Part shown: positions 3,253 through 62,220 of the stretch, one piece after another | Numbering within the stretch: the stretch's first letter is position 1 | Layout of the letters: each line of letters opens with the position of its first letter | NCBI GenBank assembly: GCA_963082975.1 | Contig: OY720347.1 | Coordinates: 15,110,225 to 15,174,224 of the forward strand | Source of the DNA: Labia minor | Taxonomy: Eukaryota; Arthropoda; Insecta; Dermaptera; Spongiphoridae | Length of the DNA stretch: 64,000 nt | Direction of reading: 5' to 3' | Translations under genes and position numbers: made by a program | The notes under the pieces: model-generated | What the model was told of the DNA's origin: nothing | Database searches by the model: none | What the model saw: only the letters and a program-made list of their open reading frames with translations

Positions 3253-3308
3253 CTGGCTAAGAAAAAGGTTAAATATTGGGTATCAGCAAAACGATAGAGC
3301 ATAAATAA

Positions 3309-3894
3309 ATCCACTCGACTATCTCGCAATTTGAATTGTATTAAATAACATATTATATGTAAATTAAATTTAATTAATTATAAATTAAAATTAATAATTA
3401 ATATTTATTAAACCAGCGCATGTTTGGCTCTTTGTTGATGGCACCATGGCACGTGTTGGCGTGTGAGAATTGCAGTGTTCAAAAATTAATTCCGTTACTT
3501 TCAGCGATTCAATCAAGCTGAAAATCTATATATAGCAGTTTTATACAATTTTTAATCATTTGAAAAACTATATCTTTATTTTTACGGTCACTTGAGAGGA
3601 AAAAAAAATAAAAACGTGGTAGGTAATGACCCTCTTCCGGATGAGCTACATTTCCCAAAAGTTGATAGAAAACTACGAATTTTGAATAATGCTCGTATAC
3701 CAAATTTAATATTTCTAGCTCAAACCGTGTCTTGTCAACATACATACACACATGCATACAACACACACACACACACACATTTTTCTCAACCTTAGTAAAA
3801 ATGATTCAGGAACCTTTAAACCGTATAAAAACATGAAAATCTTGAAATCGAAAATTTTCGTGATCGCAATACTATCTCTGGCGAGATAGTAAAA
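3309..3894 (-). mobile_element. Family A (HINE-like) copy A1
   Basis: On the minus strand it starts TTTTTACTATCTCGCC and runs through the CA-rich microsatellite and the conserved core, which includes the word ACCAAATTTAATATTTC. It ends at the inverse subterminal repeat GCGAGATAGT, then CGAGTGGA. The 3' stem-loop is cut off at the boundary. See the findings for the shared architecture. Confidence 0.8.
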
Positions 3895-4574
3895 ACAACA
3901 TATAAACAATATCATATTTATATAATAATTTAATATTATTTAAATAAATAAGCAAATGGGAGATTCTACTATTACTAATAATAATCATATAATCAATAAT
4001 TAAAAATAAAATTTTAAAATCCAATCCTATAGAAAAAGTTGAACAAATTTTCGAAATTATCAGAAACACTAAAAAATATCTTAAAGTAAAATAAATTATA
4101 TATTTAAATATTTATTTAAAATTTTTAATACAATATTTTATTAGAATATTAGAATATTACGAGCGAAATAAGAAACAAATATATGAAACTACTACCTATA
4201 AAGTTGGAAACAATCAATATTATAATGTATTAACCGATAGTAACTGATTTTAGGGGGAATAGACGTTATCATTGATATATCCTATATATATATATATATA
4301 TATTTAGGATATACATTGTTATTTAATTTGCTTTACTATTAAATATGCATTTAAATTGTAATCTCAATCAGCTTTAGAGGGACCTAATTATTATATTATT
4401 AGAATGGTGGTGATATTGCGGCAGGATTGTGGTTTCGCATTGATTCAATTTAATGGGTACAATTATTTTTAATTACTTGCGATTATCGATTACTTATTAA
4501 GATAAAAAAAAATAAAATTATTATTTTTTTTATAAAAATAATAAAGTATATTTGTTCACTAGACCTAATTAGAA

Positions 4575-4673
4575 TTTTTACTATAGCGCCAGAAAATTTT
4601 CGATAGCGAGATTTTGATGTTTTTATACGTTTTGAAGGTTCCTCAATCATTTTCACTAAGGTTGAGAAAAATG

Positions 4674-4704
<31 letters not shown>

Positions 4705-5224
4705 CTGTCTGTCTCTGTGTGTGTATCTATGTATGTATGAGTGTGTGTTTGTAGACAATATTACGCACTAGAATAATGAAATTTGGTACACACACATTAT
4801 TCAAAATTCTTAGTTTTCTATTAACTTTTGAGAAATGTAACTCAACCGGAAGAGGGTCATTACCTACCACGTTTTGATTTTTTTTCCTCTCAAGTGACCG
4901 TAAAAATAAAGATATATGTTTGATAATTTTTCATATGATTAAAAATTGTATATATTGTATGTATATAACTGCTATATATGGAATTTCAGCCTGATCGAAT
5001 CGCTGAAAGTACCAGAATTAATTTTTTAACACTGCAATTCTCACGCGCCATCACGTGACGTGGAGCCATCAACAAAGAGTCAAACACGCGCTGGTTTAAT
5101 AAATATTATTTATTGATTTTAATTAATAATTTAATTATTTTAATTTAATTTAAATATAATATATGTTATTTAATCCAATTCAAATTGCGAGATAGTCGAG
5201 TGGAGACACTCCACAGCTTATTAT
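4575..5224 (+). mobile_element. Family A copy A2
   Basis: The start TTTTTACTATAGCGCC is a diverged subterminal repeat. A (CT)n(GT)n tract at 4675-4750 replaces the CA tract of other copies. The 3' end is intact: GCGAGATAGT, then stem-loop TGGAGACACTCCA, then the CTTATT end type. This is the longest family A copy here. Confidence 0.82.
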
Positions 5225-7395
5225 TTATTAATTTTGTTGAATGTACATATATTTAAAATATATGTATTTACAATTAAGATATATTTAATTAAAAAAATTT
5301 ATACTCTTAACCTTTAAATAATATAGGAGTAATATATATTAGTAAATAAAGATCCTTAAGAATCAACTTTTATTAAATAATAAAATTAATTCAATTTAAC
5401 TTAACTTTCTTACAAATTTTTAAAAATATGTATAATTACCAAAATACAACTGATACAATGTTAATTTACAAGATAATAATTTATTTATTCTATTGTTTTT
5501 GTCATATACTCATTCTATTGATGTAAGAGCGAATATTGATTCAAAGGTAAAGGGATTAAATTTATAATGAAATGTGTATATTATTATTAATAATATTACA
5601 GCTGTTGTTGACAGTTAACTTACATTCCAGTTCTGTTAAGTAATTTAGAGATAAAAATAAAATATTTAATGTTTATTAAAAAAAAAATCATATAAACTGA
5701 AAATAAAAAAAAAATTGATATATGGTCCATCCTAAACATCTTATATATATTTATATAAATATTCATTTTAAAACGAACTCCAGAATAATTTTATTTATTA
5801 ACTACATCTTGTTTGAGAGAACCAACCATACGTTAGCAAATAATTATAATATATCATAATTTTCTTTGAAAAATAAATTTAATTAAAAAGATTATAGCTA
5901 TATATTTGAACAATTTTGTGGGTGACGTGGTATATACATATATATTTTTAAGAGTATATATTTTTTTATTTTAATTAACTTTTTATTTATATATTAGTAT
6001 AAATATATATGTATCGTTTCTTTTCCTGTTAATTTTCAAGATGTTTTTTTTTAAATTAAAATAAACAAAACAAAAAAATTTAATTTAAAATGCAAATAAA
6101 AAGAATTCTAAATTATTTTTATTATTTTTAAATAAACTTGCATGTAAAGTAGAAAGGAAATAAAGAGCAAGAAGTGAATTATTTCAAAGAAATAGGTGTG
6201 TGTATTAAATGTATGAAATTAAAATTAATTAAATCTTTCTATTGAGTATATTTTTTCAAACATTTTAATCAATTGAATAGAAATCTGCTATTAAAGTTGC
6301 CCTTTATAGGTATACATTTATTCATTATTGTTATTGTAACTTTCAATTTTCGTGTTTATCGTTTTTATTTTCAATTTTACAATTTTTATATAATCTTATT
6401 CTGAGCGTGTTCCGGGAGTGTATTTTATATTTAGTTGTGGTGTGATCGTGTTAAGTAAGAAGACCAATCCGTGTACTGAAATAAGAGATAAAAAAAAATC
6501 TATAGTCAGTTGGCCATCTGAGCCAAAGATTGGATCAAAAATTAAGTTAGAGGGTAAGAGAAGAAGTAGACTCAAAGGTTAGTATTTAAATTCAGCCTAC
6601 TTTCAAATTAATTATATTTATATATACGAGGTCTGATATCAAGAAAAGGTGAATTTTGAATTTTTGCAAGCTGTGTACATTCGATTATCGACATTTATTG
6701 TTTTTTTTTGTTATGTTGGTACTCATATGTTGACATTATCAGCCATTTTGGCTTAGTAGTATATTTTTGACAACTGAAAAAGTTAGTCACGTGTGACGAT
6801 TGGTGTGTTCTTATTCTTTATCTTCATTAAGTCTTCTTCTAGTTGTTCTGACACTCACATTTACATCCTGAACATTTTCAAGGCTATTTATTGTCTGTAC
6901 CGCTGTAGAGAATCGGTTTCTAAGAACCCACATTTGGATAAAACTGTCATTTTTGTTCGATGTTCATCTCGGGTAACCTAATCCTGATCGCCATTGGTAT
7001 GTGTTAAGTTTTCGAAACTACTTAATCACCCGAAATATAATAGTTGCAGTTGTACGGAGATAATTAATTGACTACATCTCTGTAGCTATACCCTTAAGCG
7101 CATAACAGAACGGCTGTTATTCTAAACTGCATAATTTTGATGTCTTTAGTCTAAAAGCCATGAATGAAATGAATTTCAAGCAGATTATCAATACAAAAAA
7201 CAAAAAAAAAACAACAAGGATTAATTCTCTATATTATAAATTATAAATAATTATTTTGCCGGAAAGTAATTAATCAAATAATGATTTAAAAATGCATCTG
7301 ATTAGTTTGTGCATTTTTATAATATAAAATGTCTAAAAAATAAAATAATTTAATTTATTAAACAAATGGACAAGACATTCCACTAGAAAAAAAAC
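5225..7395. other. AT-rich sequence; one weak coding-like patch
   Basis: This is mostly A/T-rich. Around 6440-6580 the plus strand has a more even composition and an open stretch beginning VLSKKTNPCTEIRDKKKS, followed by a possible splice donor (AAAGGTTAGT at about 6577). It matches no family I know. Around 6635 a string ACGAGGTCTGATATCAAG resembles the ends of some mariner elements, but no transposase follows. Confidence 0.35.
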
Positions 7396-18366: not shown

Positions 18367-18882
18367 AATAAGCTGGAATGTCTCCACTCGACTATCTGGC
18401 AATTTGAATTGGATTAAATAACATAATATATTATATTTAAATTAAATTTAATTAATTATAAATTATAAATTAAAATTAATTAATAATATTTATTAAACCA
18501 GCGCGCGTTTGGCTCTTTGTTGATGGCACCACGTTACATGCTGGCGCGTGATTTGCAGTGTTAAAAAATTAATTCCGGTACTAACTATCAAACATATCTC
18601 TTTATTTTTATCACTTTAGAGGAAAAAATCAAAACGTGGTAGTTAGATTTCTCAAAAGTTGATAGAAAACTGGGAATTTTGAATAAGCCCGTATACCAAA
18701 TTTCATGATTCTAGCTTAAACCGCTTTTGTGTAATCTTGTCTACATAATTACATACATACATACACACACACACACACAGACATTTTTCTCAACCTTAGT
18801 GAAAATGATTCAGGACGTATAAAAACATCAAAATCTCGACATCGAAAATTTTCGTGATCACAATATTGCGAGATAGTAAAAA
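18367..18882 (-). mobile_element. Family A copy A4
   Basis: Both ends are present. The minus-strand start is TTTTTACTATCTCGC. The end is CAGATAGT, then a stem-loop with one change (TGGAGACATTCCA), then CTTATT. The central part is shorter than in A2. It carries (CATA)n(CA)n near 18750-18778. Confidence 0.82.
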
Positions 18883-21165: not shown

Positions 21166-21295
21166 TATTTTATCTTACGCCTAAGATCAAGTATAAAAGT
21201 AATAAGAATATAAAAATATATGAGAGATATTTTTATAAATCTCCATGATTGGTGTTATATGTCTTATTAATCGTATAAAATAATTCTTGCGTTCT

Positions 21296-21925
21296 TTTTA
21301 CCGACCGACGATAGTAAGGGAGGAATTGTTTTCATGTCACATGTGAAGAATTTTACATATCTCCACGAATCATGCATTTTTTTAACAGAAAAAAGTATTT
21401 TTAGCATGATGTCTGCCCGTTCGTCTGTCTGTCTGTCTGTGTGTCCGTATAGATGTGTACAGCTTGAACGGTTGTACGGATTTTGATAAAATTTGCTATA
21501 TTTACTTAATGCATCTGTATAATGAATTGATCAACTTTTGGTGTATATCCGGAAACCGGAAGTAGTAATATATATATACAGGAAGGGAAGAGTTATTTTC
21601 ACACCAAATATCACTTGAGGAGATTTTTTACATATCTCCACGAATCATGCACTTTGTATTGGTTTTATCATCGAGAAAAATCATCTTCATTAGTTTTTTC
21701 TTAATTTAAATTAATTTAATGACGTCACCCAGTCCTTCATGACGTCACAGCCAGCTCCTCCTTATATATTATAAATAATATAAAATTAAAAATATTTATG
21801 TTATATCCATATCTGTTTTTATTGCATTAATAGATACATTTAAATTATTTGAAATTATTTCTGAAGGTGGAAATTAATTTATTTCCAATCGTCGGTCGGT
21901 TCTGTGCCTGGCCACAGGTCAACCT
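21296..21925 (+). mobile_element. Family B copy B2, nearly full length
   Basis: It starts TTTTTACCGACCGACGATAG, followed by TAAGGGAGG. It then has a GTCTGTCTGTCTG tract, the core GGATTTTGATAAAATTTG, a second 5'-like block near 21580-21690, and two TGACGTCA octamers near 21720 and 21740. Next come the inverse repeat CGTCGGTCGGT, stem-loop CTGTGCCTGGCCACAG, and GTCAAC. This copy gives the uninterrupted sequence at the point where B5 carries the LINE. Confidence 0.85.
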
Positions 21926-22826: not shown

Positions 22827-23188
22827 AATAAGCGGGAGTGTCCTCCCCTAGACTTTCCCGCATATAAATAGGTATAAAGAGTTGTGAATGAATATTTAGA
22901 ATGTGTAAACTTGGTATTGGTCACTTCCGGTAGTCAGATCATGATGAAATTTGGTATCTCAATTTTTTTCATATTTTTAAATCTATATACAAAATATGAA
23001 GCAAATATCTCGAAGCAAACTGGTACTTTACTTGAAAGGTAAACGCAACCAGTGTAGGTAAAGTACCACTTCCGGTTAACCGATTTTGACGAAATTTTGA
23101 TAGAAATCTACAAACTGTGAATAATATCGGTGTACCAAATTTCGAAGTCCTAGCTTGATTAGTTTTTGAGTAAATTTGCTTACAGACA

Positions 23189-23219
<31 letters not shown>

Positions 23220-23391
23220 CATACATACATACATACATACATACATACATACATACACACACAGACATAATTCGAAAAATGGTATTTTCCGACTCAGGGA
23301 GGTCTAGAACGTCAAGATCTATCGAAATCTCGAAGTCGAAATTTTTGACGATTCCAATACTTCCCTTATACGAAGTATGCGGGAAAGTAAA
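22827..23391 (-). mobile_element. Family C (HINE-like) copy C1
   Basis: The minus-strand start is ACTTTCCCGCATACTTCG. A (TATG)n tract follows, seen as (CATA)n at 23188-23256 on the plus strand. The core contains GGTACACCGATATTATTC. The inverse repeat is TATGCGGGAAAGT, then stem GGGAG-GACA-CTCCC, then CTTATT. It has no family B insertion, unlike C2 and C3, so it shows the simple form of the element. Confidence 0.85.
23188..23256 (+). repeat. (CATA)n microsatellite inside family C
   Basis: About 17 uninterrupted tetramers were counted. The same tract is shorter in C2 and C3, so its length varies between copies. Variable internal tandem repeats are a feature of HINE/DINE-1-type elements. Confidence 0.9.
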
Positions 23392-24069: not shown

Positions 24070-24371
24070 AATAAGTTGACATGTGGCCAGGTACAGAACC
24101 GACTGACGGTTTGAAATAAATTAATTTCCAGTTACAGAAACAATTTCAAATAATTTTAATATATGTATTAATGTAATAAAAAACAAATATGGATATAAAA
24201 TAAATATTTTTAATTTTATTTTATTTATAATATATAAGGAGGCGCACGTTATGAAGGGCTCTAATGAAGATGATTTTTCCCGAGGATAAAACAAATTCTT
24301 GGTTCGTGGAGATATGTAAAAGTCTCCACATGTGAAATTTGGTGTCAAATTATCGTCGGTCGATAAAAAAA
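24070..24371 (-). mobile_element. Family B copy B3, internally deleted
   Basis: Both subterminal repeats are present (ACCGACTGACGG near 24098 and ATCGTCGGTCGAT near 24352). The 3' stem-loop is diverged. The GTCC tract and the TGACGTCA pair are missing. Confidence 0.8.
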
Positions 24372-33783: not shown

Positions 33784-34293
33784 AATAAGCTGGAGTGTCT
33801 CCACTCGACTATCTCGCAATTTGAATTAGATCAATTAACATATATTATATTTAAATTAAATTTAATTAATTATAAATTAAAATTAATAAATAATATATTC
33901 TGGTACTTTCAGCGATTCAATCAAGCTGAAATTCTATATATAGCAGTTTTATACAATTTTTAATCATGTGAAAACTATCAAACATATATGTCACTTTAGA
34001 AGAAAAAAAATCAAAACGTAGTAAGTAATGATCCTCTTCCAGTTGAGCTACATTTCTTAAAGAAATAGAAAACTAGAACTTTTAAATAATGCCCGTATAC
34101 CAAATTTCATGATTCAAGCTCAAACTGTTTTTGCGTAATCTTGTCTACATAATTACACACACACAGACACACAGACATTTTTCTCAACCTTAGTGATAAT
34201 GATTCAGGAACCTTCAAAACGTATAAAAACATCAAAATCTCGACATCGAAAATTTTCGTGATCGCAATACTATCTCTGACGAGATAGTAAAAA
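33784..34293 (-). mobile_element. Family A copy A6
   Basis: Both ends are present. The minus-strand start is TTTTTACTATCTCGTCAGAG. The end is GCGAGATAGTCGAGTGGAGA, then CACTCCAGCTTATT. An internal block present in A1, A2 and A5 (with the word TTTGGCTCTTTG) is deleted. Confidence 0.85.
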
Positions 34294-35005: not shown

Positions 35006-35300
35006 TTTTACTGATCGACGATAGTAAGGGTGGTATTGTTTTCACACCCAATATCACATGTGGATATTTTTACATATCTCCACGAATCATGCATTTTTTT
35101 AACAGAAAAAAGTATTTTTAGCATGATGTCTGCCCGTTCGTCTGCCTGTCTGTCTGTGTGTCCGTATAGATGTGTACAGAGCTTTAACGGCTGTACGGAT
35201 TTTGATAAAATTTGCTATATTTACTTAATGCATCAGTATAATGAATTGATCAACTTTTGGTGTATATCCGGAAACCGGAAGTAGTAGTATATCTTCTTCT

Positions 35301-38300
35301 TCAAGTGCCTTGTCCGGTCTCCCTGACGTTGGCGATCACTCTGGCGAAAACGTCTCTATTTTCCGCCGTGCGGAACAGCTCTCCCACGCTCCTTATGCCG
35401 GTCCATTCCCTGATATTCCCTAACCAGGATTGGCGTCTTCTCCCGGGTCCACGTCGACCCTCAATTTTCCCTTTGAGGATTAATTGAAGGAGTTGATATT
35501 TATTACCTCTCAAGATGTGGCCGAGGTAAGAGATTTTCCGGCATTTGACAGTGTTGAGGAGTTCTCGCTGTGTGTTTGCTCTCCTCAAGACATCCCTGTT
35601 GGTAACTCTCTCGACCCAGGGAATTCGCAGCATTCGCCTGAGGATCCACATCTCAAAAGCCTCCAGGCGATTCATCGTACTGACCTTGAGTGTCCATGCT
35701 TCCACACCATATAAGAGAATGGACCAAACATAGCATTTGGCCATTCTCTGTCGTAATTTAAGATTTAGGTTGTCATCACAGAAGAAGGATCTCATTTTAT
35801 TGAAGGTGGACCTCGCAGCCTCAATTCTGGACTTAATTTCGATATCCGGGTCTAGCTGGTCATTTATGATACAACCAAGATATTTAAAAGATCTTACGCG
35901 TTCAACTTGTTTGTTATCGAGGTGGAGGGAGGCGTTTCCATGTGGCTGGCGGCTAAAGACCATAAATTTTGTTTTGGCTATATTGATGTTTAAGCCCGCT
36001 TTAATTCCAATTTGAGAAATTTTATTTAGAAGTAGTTGAAGGTCTTCAATGTTTTCAGACAGGATCACAGTGTCGTCGGCATATTTAATTGTACTAATTG
36101 GTACGCCATTTACTTTCACCCCCATATCCAGTTCTTCCAAGGCCTCCTTAAAAATTCTGTCAGCATAGAGATTAAATAAAAGGGGAGAGAGAATGCATCC
36201 TTGACGGACTCCTCTCTGGATCTCAATTCCCGGTGTTGTGGATTTTCCTACTCTGATTACGGCATATTGCCTCCAGTACAGATTTTTTATAATCCTGATA
36301 TCTTTTTCGTCCACTCCAGCATCGCACAGAAGTTCAATCAGTCTAGTGTGTTTTATTCTGTCAAAGGCTTTTTCGTAGTCAACAAAACATGCAAATACAT
36401 TTTTGTGTTGGTCACGACATTTTTGAAGCAAAACATTGAAGCCAAATAATGCTTCTCTTGTACCGAAGGCGTTTCTGAATCCAAACTGCGAGTCATCTAA
36501 GTCTAACTCACATTTTAATCGGATGCGGGCGTGTATTATTCGAAGAAAGGTCTTTAACATGTGGCTCATAAGACTGATGAGGCGATAGTCACTGCAATTC
36601 TTAGGGTATTGTTTCTTTGGGATAGTAACAAATGTTGATTTCAGCCATTCCTCTGGAAGCACACCGCAGTTATAGATATTGTTAAATATTTTCAATACCA
36701 GGTCTATATTGTCTTCATTGATGAATTTGATTAATTCCATTGGGATTCCATCTGGTCCCGGCGCTTTCTTGTTCTTAGCAATTGAAATAGCGTGAATTAG
36801 CTCTGATTTTATTATTTTTGGTCCTTCAGGATCGCAATCATCAATTTCAACTTCCTCTCTGGAATCTTCAAAAAGTTTTGCTGCGTACAATTGCCAGGCT
36901 TTCATGAGTTCAGCTTCGTCCGTTACTAGTTTTTTGGCTTCATTTAGTATTGACATTGGTGGTCGACTCCTGAATTGTCCAGTTATTTCCTTTACCTTTA
37001 CATGTATATTAAACATGTCATGTTTTGAGACTAATTCTTCTATTTCTTCACACCTTTCTGTCATCCAAATTTGTTTTGCTAATTTAATCCCTTTCCTTAT
37101 TTTGAATTGCATCTTTTTATATTCCACGATGTTATTTTTGAGAAGTCTCCTTTCTTCCATCAAATCCAAAATCTCGTCCGTCATCCACGACCTCCTCTTC
37201 ATTGTACGTGTTCTCCTCAAGTGAAGCGAACCAGTCTCCACCAAAGCATTTTTCAGCAGTGCCCACTGAGTATTTATATCGTCAAGATCGTCAATAGAAA
37301 TCCTCATTAATTTGCCATTGAGATCATCAATAACAGCATTCCTAACATCCTCAAATTGTAATCTTGATGTATCAATAATATTAACGTTGCAGTTTTTTCT
37401 TTTTACAGACTTCAACGCTAGGCCCATGTCCGCAACCAAAGGGTTGTGATCTGAGCCTATGTCTGCACCAGGGTATGTTGTGACTCTTTTAACACAATTT
37501 CGGAAACGTCTGTTTATCAGAATGTAATCAATTTGGTTCCTACTTGGTTCTTGGTTGTCAATAGAGTCTCTGGGTGATTTCCATGTGTAAAGACGTCGCT
37601 TTGGAAGTTTAAATAGCGTATTAGTTACTACCATCTCTGTAGTTTGGCAGAAATCATAGAGCCGGTCTCCTCTCTCATTACACTCACCTAAGCCGAAATC
37701 GCCGACCAAATCCCCCCGTCTGCCCTGACCGATTTTAGCATTAAAGTCTCCAAGTATCAAGTTTATGGTATTCTTCTTGAGAGAGTTTAGAGTGTTTTCT
37801 AAAGTGTTGTAGAATTTTTCCACTTCCTCATCGTATTTACTATCAGATGTGGGTGCGTAGACTTGTAAGATATTTATGTCAAATGGCTGTCCATGAATCT
37901 GTAGCAGCATCACTCTATCCGATATGGGCACAAAGTTCTTAACGTACCTCGTGAACTCCGAGTCAACTAGAATTCCGACACCGTTTCGATGAAACCTATC
38001 TCCACTCTCACTTCCTGAGTAATAGAGTGTTCCTCCTTCCTGAGAACAAACACCGACACCAGGCCATCTGAGTTCGCTGATTCCCATGAACTTAACTTTA
38101 AGTCTTCTCATTTCTTTGATAGCGTTGTTTAATTTTCCGGCCATGAAGAGACTTCTTACATTCCATGTACACACTCGCAATCTGGTTTTCACTATTCTGA
38201 GCCGGGAGATTCTTAGCACCCCTTGCCCATTTAAGGGCTGCCCGGGACTGGGGGCCATTTGTATTTTGTTTCTCGTCATAGTGAATTTCCTGGGGATGGT

Positions 38301-38510
38301 ATACCGAAGTGGTTTCCCGTTGCCTTCTTCGGTTTGATTCTCAGCCGCCCCTAACCTGGAGTACAGACGCTGTTCGTAGCCGCCCCTAACCTGGAGAACA
38401 GACGCTACTGGGTTTCGCCATAACTGGCTTAAGAGAAGAGAAAGTAAATAGTAAGAATGAAAGACCCCTAGCCCTCGGACACCTAATAGCGTCGGGGTCG
38501 GAAGAAACAA
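35301..38510 (-). CDS. LINE endonuclease-reverse transcriptase ORF
   Basis: It encodes the protein that nicks target DNA and copies the element RNA at the nick. Of 1069 residues, about 111-357 form an APE-type endonuclease: WNVRS with Asn117, SELRW with Glu146, GDFN at 254-257, IDYI at 327-330 and SDH at 353-355. Residues about 586-850 form the reverse transcriptase: APGPDGIP at 583-590, DYRLISL in the finger region, QFGFR, FVDYEKAFD with Asp711, RGVRQGC at 766-772, and YADD at 810-813. The tail (KYLGCI, GPGRRRQSWLGNIREWTG) is the usual extension of these elements. All catalytic residues are present. The first Met is probably not the real start: a 35-bp tandem repeat lies in the first 60 codons and is read in two frames. 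Met78 (MTRNKIQM) is more likely. Confidence 0.93.
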   Translation of the reverse strand: MFLPTPTLLGVRGLGVFHSYYLLSLLLSQLWRNPVASVLQVRGGYEQRLYSRLGAAENQTEEGNGKPLRYTIPRKFTMTRNKIQMAPSPGQPLNGQGVLRISRLRIVKTRLRVCTWNVRSLFMAGKLNNAIKEMRRLKVKFMGISELRWPGVGVCSQEGGTLYYSGSESGDRFHRNGVGILVDSEFTRYVKNFVPISDRVMLLQIHGQPFDINILQVYAPTSDSKYDEEVEKFYNTLENTLNSLKKNTINLILGDFNAKIGQGRRGDLVGDFGLGECNERGDRLYDFCQTTEMVVTNTLFKLPKRRLYTWKSPRDSIDNQEPSRNQIDYILINRRFRNCVKRVTTYPGADIGSDHNPLVADMGLALKSVKRKNCNVNIIDTSRLQFEDVRNAVIDDLNGKLMRISIDDLDDINTQWALLKNALVETGSLHLRRTRTMKRRSWMTDEILDLMEERRLLKNNIVEYKKMQFKIRKGIKLAKQIWMTERCEEIEELVSKHDMFNIHVKVKEITGQFRSRPPMSILNEAKKLVTDEAELMKAWQLYAAKLFEDSREEVEIDDCDPEGPKIIKSELIHAISIAKNKKAPGPDGIPMELIKFINEDNIDLVLKIFNNIYNCGVLPEEWLKSTFVTIPKKQYPKNCSDYRLISLMSHMLKTFLRIIHARIRLKCELDLDDSQFGFRNAFGTREALFGFNVLLQKCRDQHKNVFACFVDYEKAFDRIKHTRLIELLCDAGVDEKDIRIIKNLYWRQYAVIRVGKSTTPGIEIQRGVRQGCILSPLLFNLYADRIFKEALEELDMGVKVNGVPISTIKYADDTVILSENIEDLQLLLNKISQIGIKAGLNINIAKTKFMVFSRQPHGNASLHLDNKQVERVRSFKYLGCIINDQLDPDIEIKSRIEAARSTFNKMRSFFCDDNLNLKLRQRMAKCYVWSILLYGVEAWTLKVSTMNRLEAFEMWILRRMLRIPWVERVTNRDVLRRANTQRELLNTVKCRKISYLGHILRGNKYQLLQLILKGKIEGRRGPGRRRQSWLGNIREWTGIRSVGELFRTAENRDVFARVIANVRETGQGT

Positions 38511-39159
38511 GAGTTGGCCAAGAGAGGCCAGATAGGAAAGATAAAAGTAAGATATCTAGTACAAGTAAGTGGAAGCAATACTAGATATGGCTTGGGACCT
38601 CATGGATGCCAATCCATATGCTCATAAGCTATGAGCCCCTCAAGGGAATATGTAAGATCACCCAGCGCGCATACAAACCGCCCGCCACAAGCCACTGATA
38701 GGAAAAAGGAAATTGTTATTTATTTATTTTATAATATTAGTAAATGTTAATCGGGATAAGTTATTAATAGGAATAAATAAATAAAGGATTTAAAACAGGA
38801 GTGGTAGAGGGGGGAGAAGGAGTGGAGTACTTGCTTGGTAGAACGTTGAACCCTGAACTGAACTCGGAATTAGATGACAAAAATAAAATTAGAACAATGA
38901 TCATTATCATTATCACTAATTATACTTATTAATGGGTTCATATACCCATCAGTCTCAGTACCGAGAATTACCAATTAAGGATCCACCGCGCCCACCTTGG
39001 TAGCAATTGATCCCAGATGTGCCCCATTGTAAAGAGCACTTCAAGATCAGTAAAATGATGTAAAACTTACCACCAGTTTTAACAAATACCCCAAGGAAAA
39101 ACGGATGGGAATCAGGAGCGATGCGACACACGTCCGACCAGCGCCGAGTTCACTCACAC
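38511..39159 (-). other. 5' region of the LINE
   Basis: This is non-coding sequence between the 5' end of the element and the long frame. It is more G+C-rich than the host flanks and carries a short AT-rich internal part (38710-38940). A promoter is expected here for an RTE element, but no box was recognised. Confidence 0.6.
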
Positions 39160-40702
39160 AGTAGTATATATATATATATATAGGAAGGGAAGGGTTATTT
39201 TCACACCAAATATCACTTGAGGAGATTTTTTACATATCTCTACGAATCATGCATTTTGTATTTGTTTTATCCTCGGGAAAAATCATCTTCATTAGTTTTT
39301 TCTTAATTTAAATTAATTTAATGACGTCACCCAGTCCTTCATGACGTCACATCCAGCTCCTCCTTATATATTATAAATAAAATTAAATAAAATTAAAAAT
39401 GTATGTTATATCCATATGTTTTTTATTGCATTAATAGATACATTTAAATTATTTGAAATTGTTTCTATAGCTGGAAATTAATTTATATCAAACCTTCGTT
39501 CGGTTCTGTGCCTGGCCACAACTTATATTTTTATTTCAATTTAATTTGAATTGGTTCATTCATATAGAATTTTTCATTAATTTAAATAACAGATAATTCT
39601 ATTATTTCGTCTAAATTCAATTATCATAGGTAGGTAGGTAGTTAGGTAGGTATTTATTTGTTAAATCAGATTTTAAAAATATACAAACATTCATATATAC
39701 ATATACATACATACCTATTATAGGTATTATTAAAGTGTAATTTATTTGGGAGAAACATTAATTAAATATAATTTTGACATTGATTATATGATCATTTAAA
39801 TTTTAAATAAATAATTTCTCTTGGAAAATTAATTAAATTTATCAATAACCAAATCATATATCTTTATTAAATTTATAGGTAGGTATATGTAAATAGTAGT
39901 TTAAGCATAATTGCATTTTAGAAATTAGCATATTTCTCTAAATATAACTAACCCAATTCTATAATTTCCAATATATAGGTTGATATATAAAAAATAATAG
40001 AAGATAAAGAAAGGAAAAATAAAAGGCGAAACATTTAGCAATAAAGATCTCAAAAAGATTGATTGATTGAGAGATTGAAAGAAAGTAGAATGCATTTCGA
40101 CTGATTTTATTGTAACGAATCAATCGTATTACTTATATAGAGATTTGCCCTTTAAGTTCAAAGGGAAATATTCATTAAAATGACTTTCTGTTGAATGAAG
40201 GAGTGGAATAGCTCAATGCACCTTGCGAATGATCATTTTGAATCTTTTCGATTTTGAATTCCAATAACGTAGAAATCGGATAAGTGAAAGAAAAATAAAA
40301 AAAAGATATGAATTTTCAGATTAAAACAGGTAACAACAATAACGTTTGTGAGGAAAATACCTAAATTCAATATTTCTAAGAAAAATAGTTCTATTATGAA
40401 CCTCTCTCTCTCCCTATTGAAGTGAAACAATTTTATTATATATTTTTTTTATCTTTTCACTCTACTAAAGCATTTATTGAAAAATATAAATGTGAAAATA
40501 GAAAATACTCCTAGATAATCTGTTATAATCAGATGTCATCATCAATTTTATGAAATTTAATTCAAATTTAATCGTAAAAGATATTTAAGCTTTAAGTATT
40601 TTGACACTGGAAAATCTTATGATTTTCTGTATTTTAATTTGAATTTTTAGAACTATCACTTAATTTTCTTAACTATTATAGCTATATAAAAAAACCTCTG
40701 AC

Positions 40703-41873: not shown

Positions 41874-42048
41874 TAAGGTGACCATTTTTTGAAAACACTA
41901 AATCAGGACAATTTACCTTTTTTTGGAACCAAATTGAAAAAAAGTACGAAATGTCCTAAATATTTCAAAAAACGGGACAGACATCAAAAAGGAGGACACT
42001 TACAAAAGGAGGACAGAGCTTGCAAATGGAGGACTGTTGGTCACATTA
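41874..42048. mobile_element. hAT-type MITE, family D copy 2
   Basis: The ends TAAGGTGACCA and TGGTCACATTA are inverse. The interior has TTTTTTTGGAACCAAATTG and repeats of GGAGGACA. The flanks TATATTAT and AATATTAT match at 7 of 8 but are of low complexity. Confidence 0.75.
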
Positions 42049-42368: not shown

Positions 42369-43235
42369 TCAAAATTTAATGTAATTTAATTTAAAATTAA
42401 GTAACGATACGACGATTTGAGATGTAACCGGCATATCTTTATATTTCTCATCTATTATTGTGCCTTTCCCTGTGTATATAATAAAAGGAAAAAGATAGCC
42501 ACTTTTAGATTCACACAATAAATACAATTTTATTCCAAATCTCGCTCTTTTTAGTGGAATATACTGCATCCATCCTAATCGACCTTTGTAAAGCATTAGG
42601 CTTTCATCAATTGTTATATCCCTTTCTGGTATATATAAACTAGAACATTTATTATTTATTATTTCATAAATGGGCCAAATTTTACAAAGCTTTGGATTGG
42701 GATGTGTATTTATGTCAAATGTTTCATTGTTACTAAAATGTAAGTTCCTTTTTATACTAATATATCTTCTTAGGTTCATCAATTTTGGAAAAATAGGAGT
42801 ACTCCACATTTCATTACTTGACCAATACATTCTTTCTTCTGGTTTTTTGATAAGCCCCTGAAGTATACAGATGGCAAAAAATATCATTATTTCATTTTTG
42901 TCGACATTTTTCCATTGACTGGTAGATCTACCAGGATGTTGTTCAGCATATCTATTCGTCTCCAATACAATAATATCCAACAGAGAATCATCAAAAAATA
43001 ATTTGAAATACTCCAGTACATCAAAATTATCTTCAAAAAGAAAAGTTGTACCTGGAGTGGCAACAAATTGAAATCTTGGTGGAGGTGGATTTGGTTGGCT
43101 ATCGCTTATCTGCTTCCAATCAACAGCGATATCTTCATCTGAACTATCTTCAGAATCACTGGAATAAATATCAGAATCTTCTGAACCACTTTCTGACAAA
43201 TTTGCGTATTCATATTCAGATTCGGAATCCGTCAT
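42369..43235 (-). CDS. piggyBac transposase, N-terminal half only
   Basis: piggyBac transposases cut and paste DNA at TTAA. This 288-residue frame has an acidic N-terminus (residues 1-40, many Asp, Glu and Ser) and then the dimerisation and start of the catalytic domain. IDESLMLYKGRLG carries the first catalytic Asp (Asp210, equal to Asp268 of the Trichoplusia protein). GIKLYLLCESKSGY and YTGKGT follow. The second and third catalytic Asp and the cysteine-rich C-terminal domain are absent, because the frame ends shortly after residue 270 in unrelated codons. Typical length is about 550-600 residues. The copy cannot move itself but keeps an open frame, which may mean recent deletion or retention of a DNA-binding fragment. 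Confidence 0.88.
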   Translation of the reverse strand: MTDSESEYEYANLSESGSEDSDIYSSDSEDSSDEDIAVDWKQISDSQPNPPPPRFQFVATPGTTFLFEDNFDVLEYFKLFFDDSLLDIIVLETNRYAEQHPGRSTSQWKNVDKNEIMIFFAICILQGLIKKPEERMYWSSNEMWSTPIFPKLMNLRRYISIKRNLHFSNNETFDINTHPNPKLCKIWPIYEIINNKCSSLYIPERDITIDESLMLYKGRLGWMQYIPLKRARFGIKLYLLCESKSGYLFPFIIYTGKGTIIDEKYKDMPVTSQIVVSLLNFKLNYIKF

Positions 43236-48677: not shown

Positions 48678-49621
48678 AAATAAGCGGGAGTGTCCTCCCC
48701 TAGACTTTCCCGCATATAAATAGGTATAAAGAGTTGTGAATGAATATTTAGAATGTAATAAAGTGCTACTTCCGGTTAACTGATATTTTAAATGTAAAAA
48801 AAACAGATATGGATATAATATAAATATTTTTAATTTTATTTTATTTATAATATATAAGGGCTGGCTGTGACGTCATGAAGTGCTGGGTGACGTCATATAA
48901 TTTTAAATTAAGAAAAAACTAATGAAGATGATTTTTCTCGAGGATAAAACCAATACAAAGTGCATAACACGTGGAGATATGTCCTCACGTGAAATTTGAT
49001 ATGAAAATAACCCTTCACTTCCTCTCTTCGATCGGCAATACTAGCACTTCCGGTTTCCGGATTTGCACCAAAAGTTGGTCCATTCATCATACTGATGCAT
49101 TAAGTAAATATACCAAATTTCATCAAAATCCGTTCAGCCGTTCAAGCTGTACTCTTCTATACGGACGTACGGACAGATGGACGGACGGACGGACAGACAT
49201 CATGCTAAAAATACTTTTTTCTGTTTAGAAAATGCATGATTCGTGGAGATATGTACCTAAAAATATATAATAGGTGAAATTTGGTGTGAAAACAATACCT
49301 CCCTTACTATCGTCGGTCGGTAAAAAAGAAACGCTACTTGTATAGGTAAAATGTCACTTCCGGTAGTCAGATCATGATGAAATTTGGTATCTCAATTTTT
49401 TTCATATTTTTAAATCTATATACAAAATAGGAAGCAAATATCTCGAAGCAAACTGGTACTTTACTTGAAAGGTAAACGCAACCAGTGTAGGTAAAGTACC
49501 ACTTCCGGTTAACCGATTTTGACGAAATTTTGATAGAAATCTACAAACTGTGAATAATATCGGTGTACCAAATTTCGAAGTCCTAGCTTGATTAGTTTTT
49601 GAGTAAATTTGCTTACAGACA

Positions 49622-49652
<31 letters not shown>

Positions 49653-49807
49653 CATACATACATACATACACACACACAGACATAATTCGAAAAATGGTAT
49701 TTTCCGACTCAGGGAGGTCTAAAACGTCAAGATCTATCGAAATCTCGAAGTCGAAATTTTTGACGATTCCAATACTTCCCTTATACGAAGTATGCGGGAA
49801 AGTAAAA
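48678..49807 (-). mobile_element. Family C copy C2 with embedded family B sequence
   Basis: Outer ends are those of family C (ACTTTCCCGCATACTTCG start, TATGCGGGAAAGT, stem-loop and CTTATT end). Between about 48796 and 49326 lies a partial family B element. The same composite, with the same join points, occurs at 58409-59592, so the two have spread as one unit. Confidence 0.88.
48796..49326 (-). mobile_element. Family B segment B6 within C2
   Basis: The start TTTTTACCGACCGACGATAG, GTCC tract, core and TGACGTCA pair are present. The family B 3' end (inverse repeat and stem-loop) is missing. Family C sequence resumes after the CATATCTGTTTTTTT block. Confidence 0.82.
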
Positions 49808-58360: not shown

Positions 58361-58548
58361 TAGAGTGACCATATTTCGAAAACACCAAACCGGGACAAAC
58401 GTTTTACCTTTTTACTTTCCCGCATACTTTGTATAAGGGAAGTATTGGAATCGTCAAAAATTTCGACTTCGAGATTTTGATAGATCTTGACGTTTTAGAC
58501 CTCCCTGAGTCGGAAAATACCATTTTTCGAATTATGTCTGTGTGTGTG

Positions 58549-58579
<31 letters not shown>

Positions 58580-58873
58580 TGTCTGTAAGCAAATTTACTC
58601 AAAAACTAATCAAGCTAGGAATTCGAAATTTTGATCACCGATATTATTCACAGTTTGTAGATTTCTATCAAAATTTCGTCAAAATCGGTTAACCGGAAGT
58701 GGTACTTTACCTACAATGGTTGCGTTTACCTTTCAAGTAAAGTACCAGTTTGCTTCGAGATATTTGCTTCCTATTTTGTATATAGATTTAAAAATATGAA
58801 AAAAATTCAGATACCAAATTTCATCATGATCTGACTACGGAAGTGACATTTTACCTATACAAGTAGCGTTTCC

Positions 58874-59480
58874 TTTTTACCGACCGACAATAGTAAGGGA
58901 GGTATTGTTTTCACACTAAATTTTACCTGTGGATATTTTTAGGTACATATCTCCACGAATCATGCATTTTCTTACCAGAAAAAAGTATTTTTAGCATGAT
59001 GTCTGTCCGTCCGTCCGCTGTGTGTCCGTAGAGATGTGTACAGCTTGAACGGCTCAACCGATTTTGAAGGGCCACATGCGGCCCGCGGGCCGCGGGTTGC
59101 TCATCCCTGGTATAGATGTATACAGCCTGAACGGCTCAACGGATTTTGATGAAATTTGGTATATTTACTTAATGCATCAGTATGAAGAATGGATCAACTT
59201 TTGGTGCAAATCCGGAAACCGGAAGTGCTAGTATTGCCGATCGAAGAGAGGAAGTGAAGGGTTATTTTCATATCAAATTTCACGTGAAGGCATATCTCCA
59301 CGTGTTATGCACTTTGTATTGGTTTTATCCTCGAGAAAAATCATCTTCATTAGTTTTTTCTTAATTTAAAATTATATGACGTCACCCCGCACTTCATGAC
59401 GTCACATCCAGCCCTTATATATTATAAATAAAATAAAATTAAAAATATTTATATTATATCCATATCTGTTTTTTTACATT
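58874..59480 (+). mobile_element. Family B segment B7 within C3
   Basis: The start TTTTTACCGACCGACAATAG, GTCC tract, core and two TGACGTCA octamers near 59379 and 59397 are present. The 3' end is missing. The core is interrupted by a foreign hAT tip at 59068. Confidence 0.85.
59068..59110. mobile_element. Tip of a hAT element inside B7
   Basis: The inverse reads CCAGGGATGAGCAACCCGCG, then GGCCCGCGGGCCGCATGTGGCCC. This is the G+C-rich end type seen in animal hAT elements (CAGGG start, repeated GGCCC palindromes). On both sides the same family B stretch (ATAGATGTGTACAGC to GATTTTGA) is repeated, so the fragment sits between duplicated host pieces. Confidence 0.7.
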
Positions 59481-59750
59481 TAAAATATCAGTTAACCGGA
59501 AGTAGCACTTTATTACATTCTAAATATTCATTCACAACTCTTTATACCTATTTATATGCGGGAAAGTCTAGGGGAGGACACTCCCGCTTATTTTAGAACC
59601 AAATTGAAAAAATGTTGAAAAAAGTACGAAATGTTCTATATATCTAAAAGAACGGGACACTATGCTGTCCCGAAGACATTTTTCGGGCCGCCGGGACAGA
59701 GCACTTAAAAACAGAACAATCCCGGAAATACGGGACGTTTGATCACCCTA

Positions 59751-61322: not shown

Positions 61323-62220
61323 CAGTGATGTATTGGTAAATAAGAAGAAAACGCATAGTGGGAGCAAAAAAAAGTCCTATTTTCAGCAAACTATTTTTTA
61401 CCGACCGACAATAGTAAGGGAGGTATTGTTTTCACACCAAATTTCACATGTGGAGATTTTTACATATCTCCACGAATCATGCATTTTCTAAACAGAAAAA
61501 AGTATTTTTAGCATGATGTCTGTCCGTCCGTCTGTCCGTCTGTCCGTCTGTCCGTCCGTCTGTCCGTATAGATGTGTACAGCCTGAACGGCTCAACCGAT
61601 TTTGATGAAATTTGGTATATTTACTTAATGCATCAGTGGGATGAATTGATCAACTTTTGGTGCAAATCCGGAAACCGGAAGTGGTAGTATTAGCGATCGA
61701 CGATAGGAAGGGAAGGGTTATTTTCACACCAAATTTCACATGAGGAGATTTTTTTATATATCACCACGAATCATACATTTTGTATTGGTTTTATCCTCGG
61801 GAAAATCATATTTATTAGTTTTTTCTTGATTTAAAATTATATGACGTCATCCAGCCATTCATGACGTCACAGCCTGGTCTTACATATATATTATAAATAA
61901 AATAAAATTAAAAATGTTTATATTTATTATTTATGTATTCATATCTGTTTTTTATTACATTAATAGATATATTAAAATTATTTGAAATTGTTTCTGTAGC
62001 TAGAAATTAATTTACTTCAAACCGTCGGTCGGTTCGGACCTGGCCACAGGTCAACTTATTTCCATAAAAGTTTTTATTTTTTCTTATTCTTACTAAACAA
62101 AATATTAACGAACACAAAAAAGAAATTCTAAGTGGGAGTTGTCGGGACAAGAAAAAGTCCGGTTCTGAAAAAAGGTAAGGGAACGTCGTTCCCCCGCGTT
62201 CCCCTCCCTATACACCACTG
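61323..62220. mobile_element. hAT-type element, family G, holding a family B copy
   Basis: The ends CAGTGATGTATTGG and CCCTATACACCACTG are inverse. The flanking octamer ATAATATA is identical on both sides (61315-61322, 62221-62228). Its own sequence is about 230 bp (61323-61393 and 62062-62220), with AACGTCGTTCCCCC near the right end. B8 lies within. Confidence 0.88.
61394..62061 (+). mobile_element. Family B copy B8, full length
   Basis: It starts TTTTTACCGACCGACAATAG, then a GTCCGTCTGTCCGTC tract and the core. Next come the second 5'-like block (GATCGACGATAGGAAGG) and two TGACGTCA octamers near 61842 and 61861. It ends CGTCGGTCGGTTCGGACCTG, then a stem-loop and GTCAACTTATT. It is the best template for family B here. 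Confidence 0.9.

Follow-up and report, generated by a model that had tools for sequence, protein, structure and literature searches.

Family-matched, co-varying ends in three families of probable non-autonomous Helentrons in Labia minor

Results

Three families of short elements in the window

We analysed a 64,000-nucleotide stretch of the Labia minor genome (the window), which is part of contig C5; the genome is AT-rich and 604 Mb in size. Three motifs recurred in the window: ACTATCTCGC was matched nine times at up to one mismatch (0.99 expected by chance), ACCGACCGAC nine times at up to one mismatch (0.33 expected) and ACTTTCCCGCATA seven times at up to two mismatches (0.96 expected). These motifs were placed at opposite ends of repeated elements, which fall into families A, B and C (Table 1). 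As a first-pass annotation had proposed, the families share one plan, namely a T-run, a subterminal repeat, its exact inverse near the 3′ end and a short 3′ stem. That the 3′ repeat is the exact complement of the 5′ repeat, also claimed there, was borne out in the focal family C copy (59555-59567 against 58414-58426).

Read from 58409 to 59592, the focal copy shows, in order, T5, ACTTTCCCGCATA, TATGCGGGAAAGT, GGGAG-GACA-CTCCC and CTTATT. The T-run, initially taken as the start of the element, is present but can be ascribed to the target: a paralogous unoccupied site has an equal number of T's, so the element proper starts at the A at 58414 and runs through 59592. The focal copy carries C ends, but it is a composite with a family B 5′ end nested at 58879. 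The nested B piece showed 81–84% identity to the B copies at 21295 and 61395, with the alignment stopping at about B position 567. A second long C copy on the minus strand (48679-49803) aligned with the focal element in two stretches (92.9% and 97.5% identity), and both are C elements containing a B 5′ end and B body and no B 3′ end. The hairpin fold to which 58437..58443 contributes was computed on the common C 5′ end, which is unlike the focal copy at one base (z −2.4).

Table 1. Features of the focal element and other family copies in the window
Feature	Position	Strand	Basis or remark
T5, 5′ junction	58409..58413	+	Ascribed to target: joined flanks correspond to unoccupied site 41878-41972, equal T count
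Focal family C element, long (composite) form	58414..59592	+	Both C ends present
Family C 5′ subterminal repeat ACTTTCCCGCATA	58414..58426	+	Sequence
GGGAAGT, right arm of family C 5′ hairpin, third copy of repeat core	58437..58443	+	DNA fold
Internal TGTG/TGTA microsatellite	58540..58580 (limits approximate)	+	Sequence
Nested family B 5′ end and B body, without B 3′ end	58879..59480 (end approximate)	+	Alignment to B copies
Family C 3′ subterminal repeat TATGCGGGAAAGT, exact inverse of 58414-58426	59555..59567	+	Sequence
Family C 3′ stem-loop GGGAG-GACA-CTCCC	59572..59585	+	Sequence
Terminal CTTATT, belongs to element	59587..59592	+	Not in unoccupied site
Paralogous unoccupied site of focal insertion	41878..41972	+	77% over 109 columns across junction, no target duplication
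Second long family C copy, same nested B piece	48679..49803	-	Sequence comparison
Short family C copy without nested B piece	22827..23388	-	Sequence comparison
Family A copy, both ends, one mismatch in 5′ repeat	33784..34288	-	
Family A copy, both ends, one mismatch in 3′ repeat	18367..18877	-	
Family A copy, damaged 3′ stem	3318..3890	-	
Family B copy, both ends	61400..62060	+	
Family B copy, CTGTG-type 3′ stem, tail CAACCTTTTC	21300..21925 (end approximate)	+	
Short family B copy, both ends, one mismatch per repeat	24070..24364	-	

Other elements were seen in the same window. At 35010-39530, a LINE-like element interrupts a family B element; in its 1,069-codon open frame (35301-38510, minus strand), endonuclease and reverse transcriptase were recognised by eye. 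The B sequence restarts at 39160, where a brief overlap may represent the target duplication of the LINE. A 288-codon open frame at 42369-43235 (minus strand) has, by eye, the look of a piggyBac-type transposase. Family B contains a diverged internal repeat of its own 5′ end (61690-61784 against 61398-61490, 84% over 95 columns), as if two nested units made up B.

Anatomy of the ends

In their common forms, from which variants occur, all three families have a T-run at the 5′ end. It is followed by ACTATCTCGC in family A, which ends in GCGAGATAGT-CGAG-TGGAG-ACA-CTCCA-G-CTTATT; by ACCGACCGACG in family B, which ends in CGTCGGTCGGT-TCG-GACCTG-GCCA-CAGGTC-AA-CTTATT; and by ACTTTCCCGCATA in family C, which ends in TATGCGGGAAAGT-CTAG-GGGAG-GACA-CTCCC-G-CTTATT. 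The exact inverse repeat spans 11 bp in B, 13 bp in C and, as counted here, 10 bp in A. The 3′ stems first described for A (TGGAG/CTCCA) and C (GGGAG/CTCCC) stood, but the one described for B (CTGTG/CACAG) proved to be a minority form. Among 13 B 3′ ends, nine had GACCTG...CAGGTC or a close variant and four were of the CTGTG or CTGTA type; CACAG was kept in one of these four, at 21891 of the window. The terminal CTTATT is likewise usual but not universal: among 24 C loci that start at a C 5′ end, it was exact in 16 and not exact in the other eight.

Families A and C are related, with 71% identity over 138 bp of their 5′ parts. Across the ten shared bases of the repeat they differ at two positions, each mirrored at the opposite end, and their 3′ stems differ by one matched pair. 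In both, the repeat core also occurs a third time, as the right arm of a 5′ hairpin, and this copy differs in step with the repeat. The predicted 5′ fold has nine pairs in A (z −5.3) and is weaker in C (z −2.4); the B 5′ end gave no hairpin (z −0.4). At the 3′ end, the predicted folds of A (z −1.5) and B (z −1.9) showed a modest gain over shuffles, and in C (z −3.4) the optimum was GCGGGA/TCCCGC rather than GGGAG/CTCCC. A search of viral_contigs returned no exact match to the A 5′ hairpin or to part of the B 3′ end.

Pairing of ends across the genome

Exact 3′ end motifs occurred 23,875 times (A/C type) and 16,070 times (B) in the whole genome, and exact 5′ end motifs 19,175 times (A/C) and 23,695 times (B); reversed-pattern controls gave 0 and 0 for the 3′ motifs and 21 and 0 for the 5′ motifs. 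A longer C 3′ pattern, allowing up to one mismatch, yielded 3,429 matches (control 0). Within the first 100 matches listed, the A/C 3′ ends comprised 88 of A, 10 of C and two single-base A variants, and the A/C 5′ ends were all pure A or pure C. Hybrid 3′ ends were counted genome-wide: the C repeat joined to the A stem occurred twice and the A repeat joined to the C stem never.

Each 5′ end was paired with the closest 3′ end lying up to 1.6 kb downstream, using exact motifs among the matches listed (C1 up to 3,235,900). One C 3′ end was added from the longer-pattern search, and the two single-base A 3′ variants were counted as A. This region, C1:1-3,235,900, held 166 exact 5′ ends and 167 exact 3′ ends, and 74 of the 166 had no 3′ end within reach. 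The resulting pairs were 26 A5-A3, one A5-B3, 49 B5-B3, seven B5-C3 and nine C5-C3. After six B5-C3 pairs nested in C5-C3 elements were put aside, 84 of 86 pairs were family-matched, compared with a mean of 38 and a maximum of 55 in 20,000 label shuffles; with the six included, the figure was 84/92 (shuffle mean 40, maximum 57). Circular shifting gave chance pair numbers of 1.17 for A-A, 1.69 for B-B, 0.04 for C-C, 0.98 for A-B and 0.27 for B-C. The sole A5-B3 pair (C1:1783377, ends 1,158 bp apart) is therefore at chance level.

These results confirm across the genome the paired change of ends between families that had been noticed in the window, by the pairing count as well as by the near absence of hybrid A/C 3′ ends. 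Family matching is strong but has exceptions. Left and right terminal signals are reportedly also handled as pairs by the HELIANO tool.

Part of the co-variation is plain common descent, because a copy inherits both ends together. Descent might even account for all of it, if each family came from one founder with matched ends and kept the linkage without any present need for matching. Copies within a family are indeed non-independent, there are three families only, A and C are kin, and a mixed-end copy exists (L053, below). However, the differences between A and C, two positions in the repeat and one pair in the stem, changed in matched fashion. Since these differences are mirrored at the opposite end, matched ends were kept through divergence. 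Descent alone also leaves the matched ends of all three founders unexplained.

Composite C elements with a nested B 5′ end

A further point against descent alone came from 30 loci anchored on a C 3′ end. These were the first 30 matches listed, a non-random sample in which L058 and L059 overlap; L002, which overlaps L001, was omitted from pooled counts. A C 5′ start was present in 24 loci, in five the C sequence started internally beside other sequence, and one (L053) had a B 5′ start. Of these 24 loci, 18 held a nested B 5′ end at a shorter distance from the C 3′ end than their own C 5′ end, yet a B 5′ end was the start of 1/30 C-ended loci. That the nested B 5′ end so seldom pairs with the C 3′ end is better evidence for matching than co-variation itself. 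We consider descent alone a possible but doubtful account.

All but one of the seven B5-to-C3 pairs are nested in a C5-to-C3 element, the exception being L053. This copy starts with B and ends with C, and no C 5′ part was found within the 1.5 kb examined. It could be a true mixed-end insertion or the product of a deletion between two TTTTTAC stretches. The B pieces in the long C elements and in the coding element with A ends (see below) stop at or just after one and the same B T-run.

Several unusual arrangements were noted among the copies. At L058/L059 (C1:3341016, 3342221), two C elements lie head-to-tail, the second beginning inside the 3′ tail of the first; this arrangement is no more than suggestive of rolling-circle replication. 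The interrupted C copies L056 and L059 are joined near the microsatellite to sequence that is reverse-transcriptase-like by eye, and these junctions may mark a LINE that targets such repeats. Very short A forms, for example at C4:5198460 and C6:57482930, pass from the 5′ hairpin straight into the 3′ tail; the identical fused sequence at two sites implies that minimal A forms may be mobile.

Insertion sites

To examine insertion, 60 bp flanks were joined, and 36 of 38 elements had full flanks. Within the sequence examined, unoccupied paralogous sites were identified for five copies among the 36 flanks tested: L049, L062 and L073 (all C), L077 (B) and the focal copy. None of the five showed a target duplication, in line with the earlier expectation that fixed target-site duplications would be lacking. 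The element at L058/L059 was counted twice in this test, and its rows, which reflect the head-to-tail C pair, were not used; the rows for L054, L070 and L008 were not counted, as they were judged to be chance AT-rich or repeat matches. In L049 and L062, C was inserted into family A bodies at the same T-run. The number of T's at the unoccupied site was equal for L049, L062 and the focal copy and off by one for L073 and L077, and copies ending in CTTATT had no CTTATT at their unoccupied sites.

Short, numerous elements with inverted repeats near both ends might also be cut-and-paste MITEs with imperfect terminal inverted repeats. Such elements would carry a fixed-length target duplication, and there was none at the five unoccupied sites. 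Moreover, the repeats of A, B and C are subterminal, their 3′ end has an extra stem and tail, and the A-ended coding element specifies Rep and helicase domains. A MITE origin is thus extremely improbable.

A coding element with family A ends

The Helitron Rep domain (PF14214) was found at 104 places in the genome. One of them, on the minus strand of C1 at 47.868 Mb, lies in an element of 12,184 bp with an open frame of 2,181 codons. Its 5′ end is of the A type, including the hairpin, and matched the window A copy at 3271-3895 with 84% identity over 521 bp; its 3′ end, also of the A type, matched the A copy near 33784 with 97.8% identity over 45 bp. In the 17.9 kb around the frame, at up to two mismatches, there was a single A 5′ end with a T-run and a single A 3′ end, both correctly ordered and oriented. 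By arithmetic from the genome end counts, the chance of finding both so near (4.3 kb and 1.25 kb, same strand) is about 0.002. We infer from this one copy that A ends frame a Rep-helicase coding element. Other A-like coding copies exist in the genome in pieces (77–99% identity), among them copies at C1:44.69 Mb, at C10:37.19 Mb and on C60, and the element itself holds a nested B 5′ piece.

The encoded protein has a Rep domain (PF14214, E 5e-25) with the H-x-H motif and a PIF1 helicase (E 1e-31). An endonuclease-like domain was matched by Exo_endo_phos_2 (E 2e-4) at 21.4 bits, below the curated Pfam cut-off of 27.4. There was also a weak Ulp1-like protease match (E 0.0037), below its cut-off, and a phmmer search of the PDB gave weak protease matches only (best SENP8, E 0.011). 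An AlphaFold model of the C-terminal 405 residues had a mean pLDDT of 31.9 and was left unused.

Other Rep-helicase lineages

The other Rep-helicase frames fell into lineages with 51–57% and 29–38% identity to the A protein; those at 51–57% include C1:44.70 Mb, C1:55.79 Mb, C2:66.56 Mb and C2:51.57 Mb. None had a B or C 3′ end beside it in the stretches read, which cover a minority of the flanks. B pieces near Rep-helicase frames were 5′ only, namely the piece nested in the A element and 36 bp near C2:16.29 Mb. The lineage at C2:16.28 Mb has an endonuclease match of 28.9 bits, above the cut-off of 24.5; it was assigned to no family, its surroundings holding the 36 bp piece of a B 5′ end and an A-like 3′ end in degraded form. 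In the group of 1,785 aa, motifs of the three families were lacking over 13 kb, and beside L011/L043 they were lacking downstream, the one side read. L084, downstream of a 51% lineage, contained an OTU-like domain, and none of the three kinds of end was present in its 2.5 kb.

A group of 1,652 aa required closer inspection. An A 5′ start lies 3.3 kb upstream of it (L039:52), and downstream lies a short A element that has a start and an end of its own (L040, about 4667-5325). A genome search with the upstream DNA served as a control on the parent claim for this group; the A coding element is represented by one copy. In this search, 28 other copies were 99–100% identical up to query base 1500 and began at query base 259-289. 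Because they begin well inside the nearby A start, this group is not A-ended and was rejected as an A-ended parent. The 28 copies beyond the query's own place match the first 1.2 kb at 99–100%, marking a very young family, and two of the 1,652 aa frames lie head-to-head on C9 near 43.36 Mb.

Pfam detected no endonuclease in the 1,652 aa or the 1,785 aa group, and the presence of such frames in the genome raises the reading of A, B and C as canonical Helitrons, with 5′ TC, 3′ CTRR and insertion between A and T. However, in the three families the first base is an A preceded by a T-run, most copies finish with CTTATT and insertion is at T's, and the 1,652 aa group has a 5′ limit of its own and no A end. 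We regard canonical Helitrons as highly improbable.

The earlier annotation had called for an autonomous element with the same ends and attributed the co-variation to active matching of ends by distinct replication proteins. A candidate for such an element was found for A, as one copy, and none for B or C in the stretches read. The idea of distinct proteins is supported in part: A has a coding element, but no other lineage was tied to B or C ends.

Discussion

We conclude that A, B and C are non-autonomous Helentrons (HINEs), with a probability of about 0.9. This assignment, which agrees with the HINE/DINE-1 type suggested initially, is made because of their structure, their insertion at T's without duplication, and the Rep-helicase element with A ends and an endonuclease-like domain.

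Mite HINE families have subterminal inverted repeats of 12-15 bp, and a HINE family is delimited by identical repeats of at least 11 bp (PMC4067079). Subterminal inverted repeats common to both ends are present in our three families, that of A (10 bp) being one base below the published figure. A palindrome lies near the 3′ end in each (TGGAG/CTCCA in A, GGGAG/CTCCC in C, GACCTG/CAGGTC in B), and the five unoccupied sites show insertion at T's without target-site duplication. A putative autonomous partner with the same ends was found for A only, as one copy whose endonuclease match is under the cut-off. The set is thus of a known kind. Since Thomas et al. (2014) define families by identical subterminal repeats at both ends (PMC4067079), matched ends that differ between families are expected and not new.

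According to the same source, HINEs and Helentrons share with our elements the subterminal inverted repeats, 3′ palindrome, T-rich target with no modification detected and variable number of flanking T's, and non-autonomous copies outnumber a Rep/helicase/endonuclease parent with the same ends (PMC4067079). The mite families have palindromic subterminal repeats, whereas A and C have a 5′ hairpin; the exact A repeat is 10 bp by our count, and C has a composite form with nested B. Drosophila DINE-1, compared by description only, resembles our families in its subterminal repeats, internal microsatellite and 3′ stem-loop, and resembles A and C in having an inverted repeat with its 5′ side lying inside the 5′ subterminal repeat; B, without a 5′ hairpin, differs (PMC4067079).

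Fusarium Helitron2 elements similarly have asymmetric terminal inverted repeats and hairpins at their termini, but their terminal bases are different and two subgroups insert between TNAT and T; Helitron2 is kept separate from Helentrons, which add an endonuclease (PMC5148889). Lepidopteran Hel-2 elements share a 5′ inverted repeat, subterminal inverted repeats, a tetranucleotide microsatellite after the 5′ repeat and a 3′ hairpin, but are annotated with TC/CTRR ends and flanking A/T (PMC4344730).

The A coding element would mobilise family A, presumably by rolling-circle copying with a nicking step carried out by Helentron machinery. The A protein may read the subterminal repeat, and the two repeats might be bound separately or be paired with each other as single strands. 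The Helentron endonuclease has been proposed to cut between T's (PMC4067079). The B pieces ending at one internal T-run fit this proposal, although two events are few.

Tentatively, end recognition in Helentrons might be an exclusive code, in which each co-resident lineage recognises its own repeats alone (5′ repeat, 5′ hairpin arm and 3′ repeat) and a foreign nested 5′ end is ignored and carried as cargo. The 3′ signal might in addition be skipped by cleavage at an internal T-run, giving 3′-truncated insertions such as the B pieces in the long C elements and in the A coding element. If this is true, Helentron end specificity would be directly testable through natural mixed-end copies such as L053.

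The present data add a measure of the strictness of pairing, supply one of the families with a coding element and provide composites in which that strictness can be put to the test. The genome harbours three very abundant HINE families, one of them tied to an open-frame coding element. With C 3′ ends in the thousands and a nearer, competing B 5′ end in 18/24 C5-C3 loci, it offers a natural test of end specificity. In 2014, biochemical work on Helentron transposition was described as still needed (PMC4067079), and the matched coding and non-coding set in Labia minor is a usable test system for Helentron transposition.
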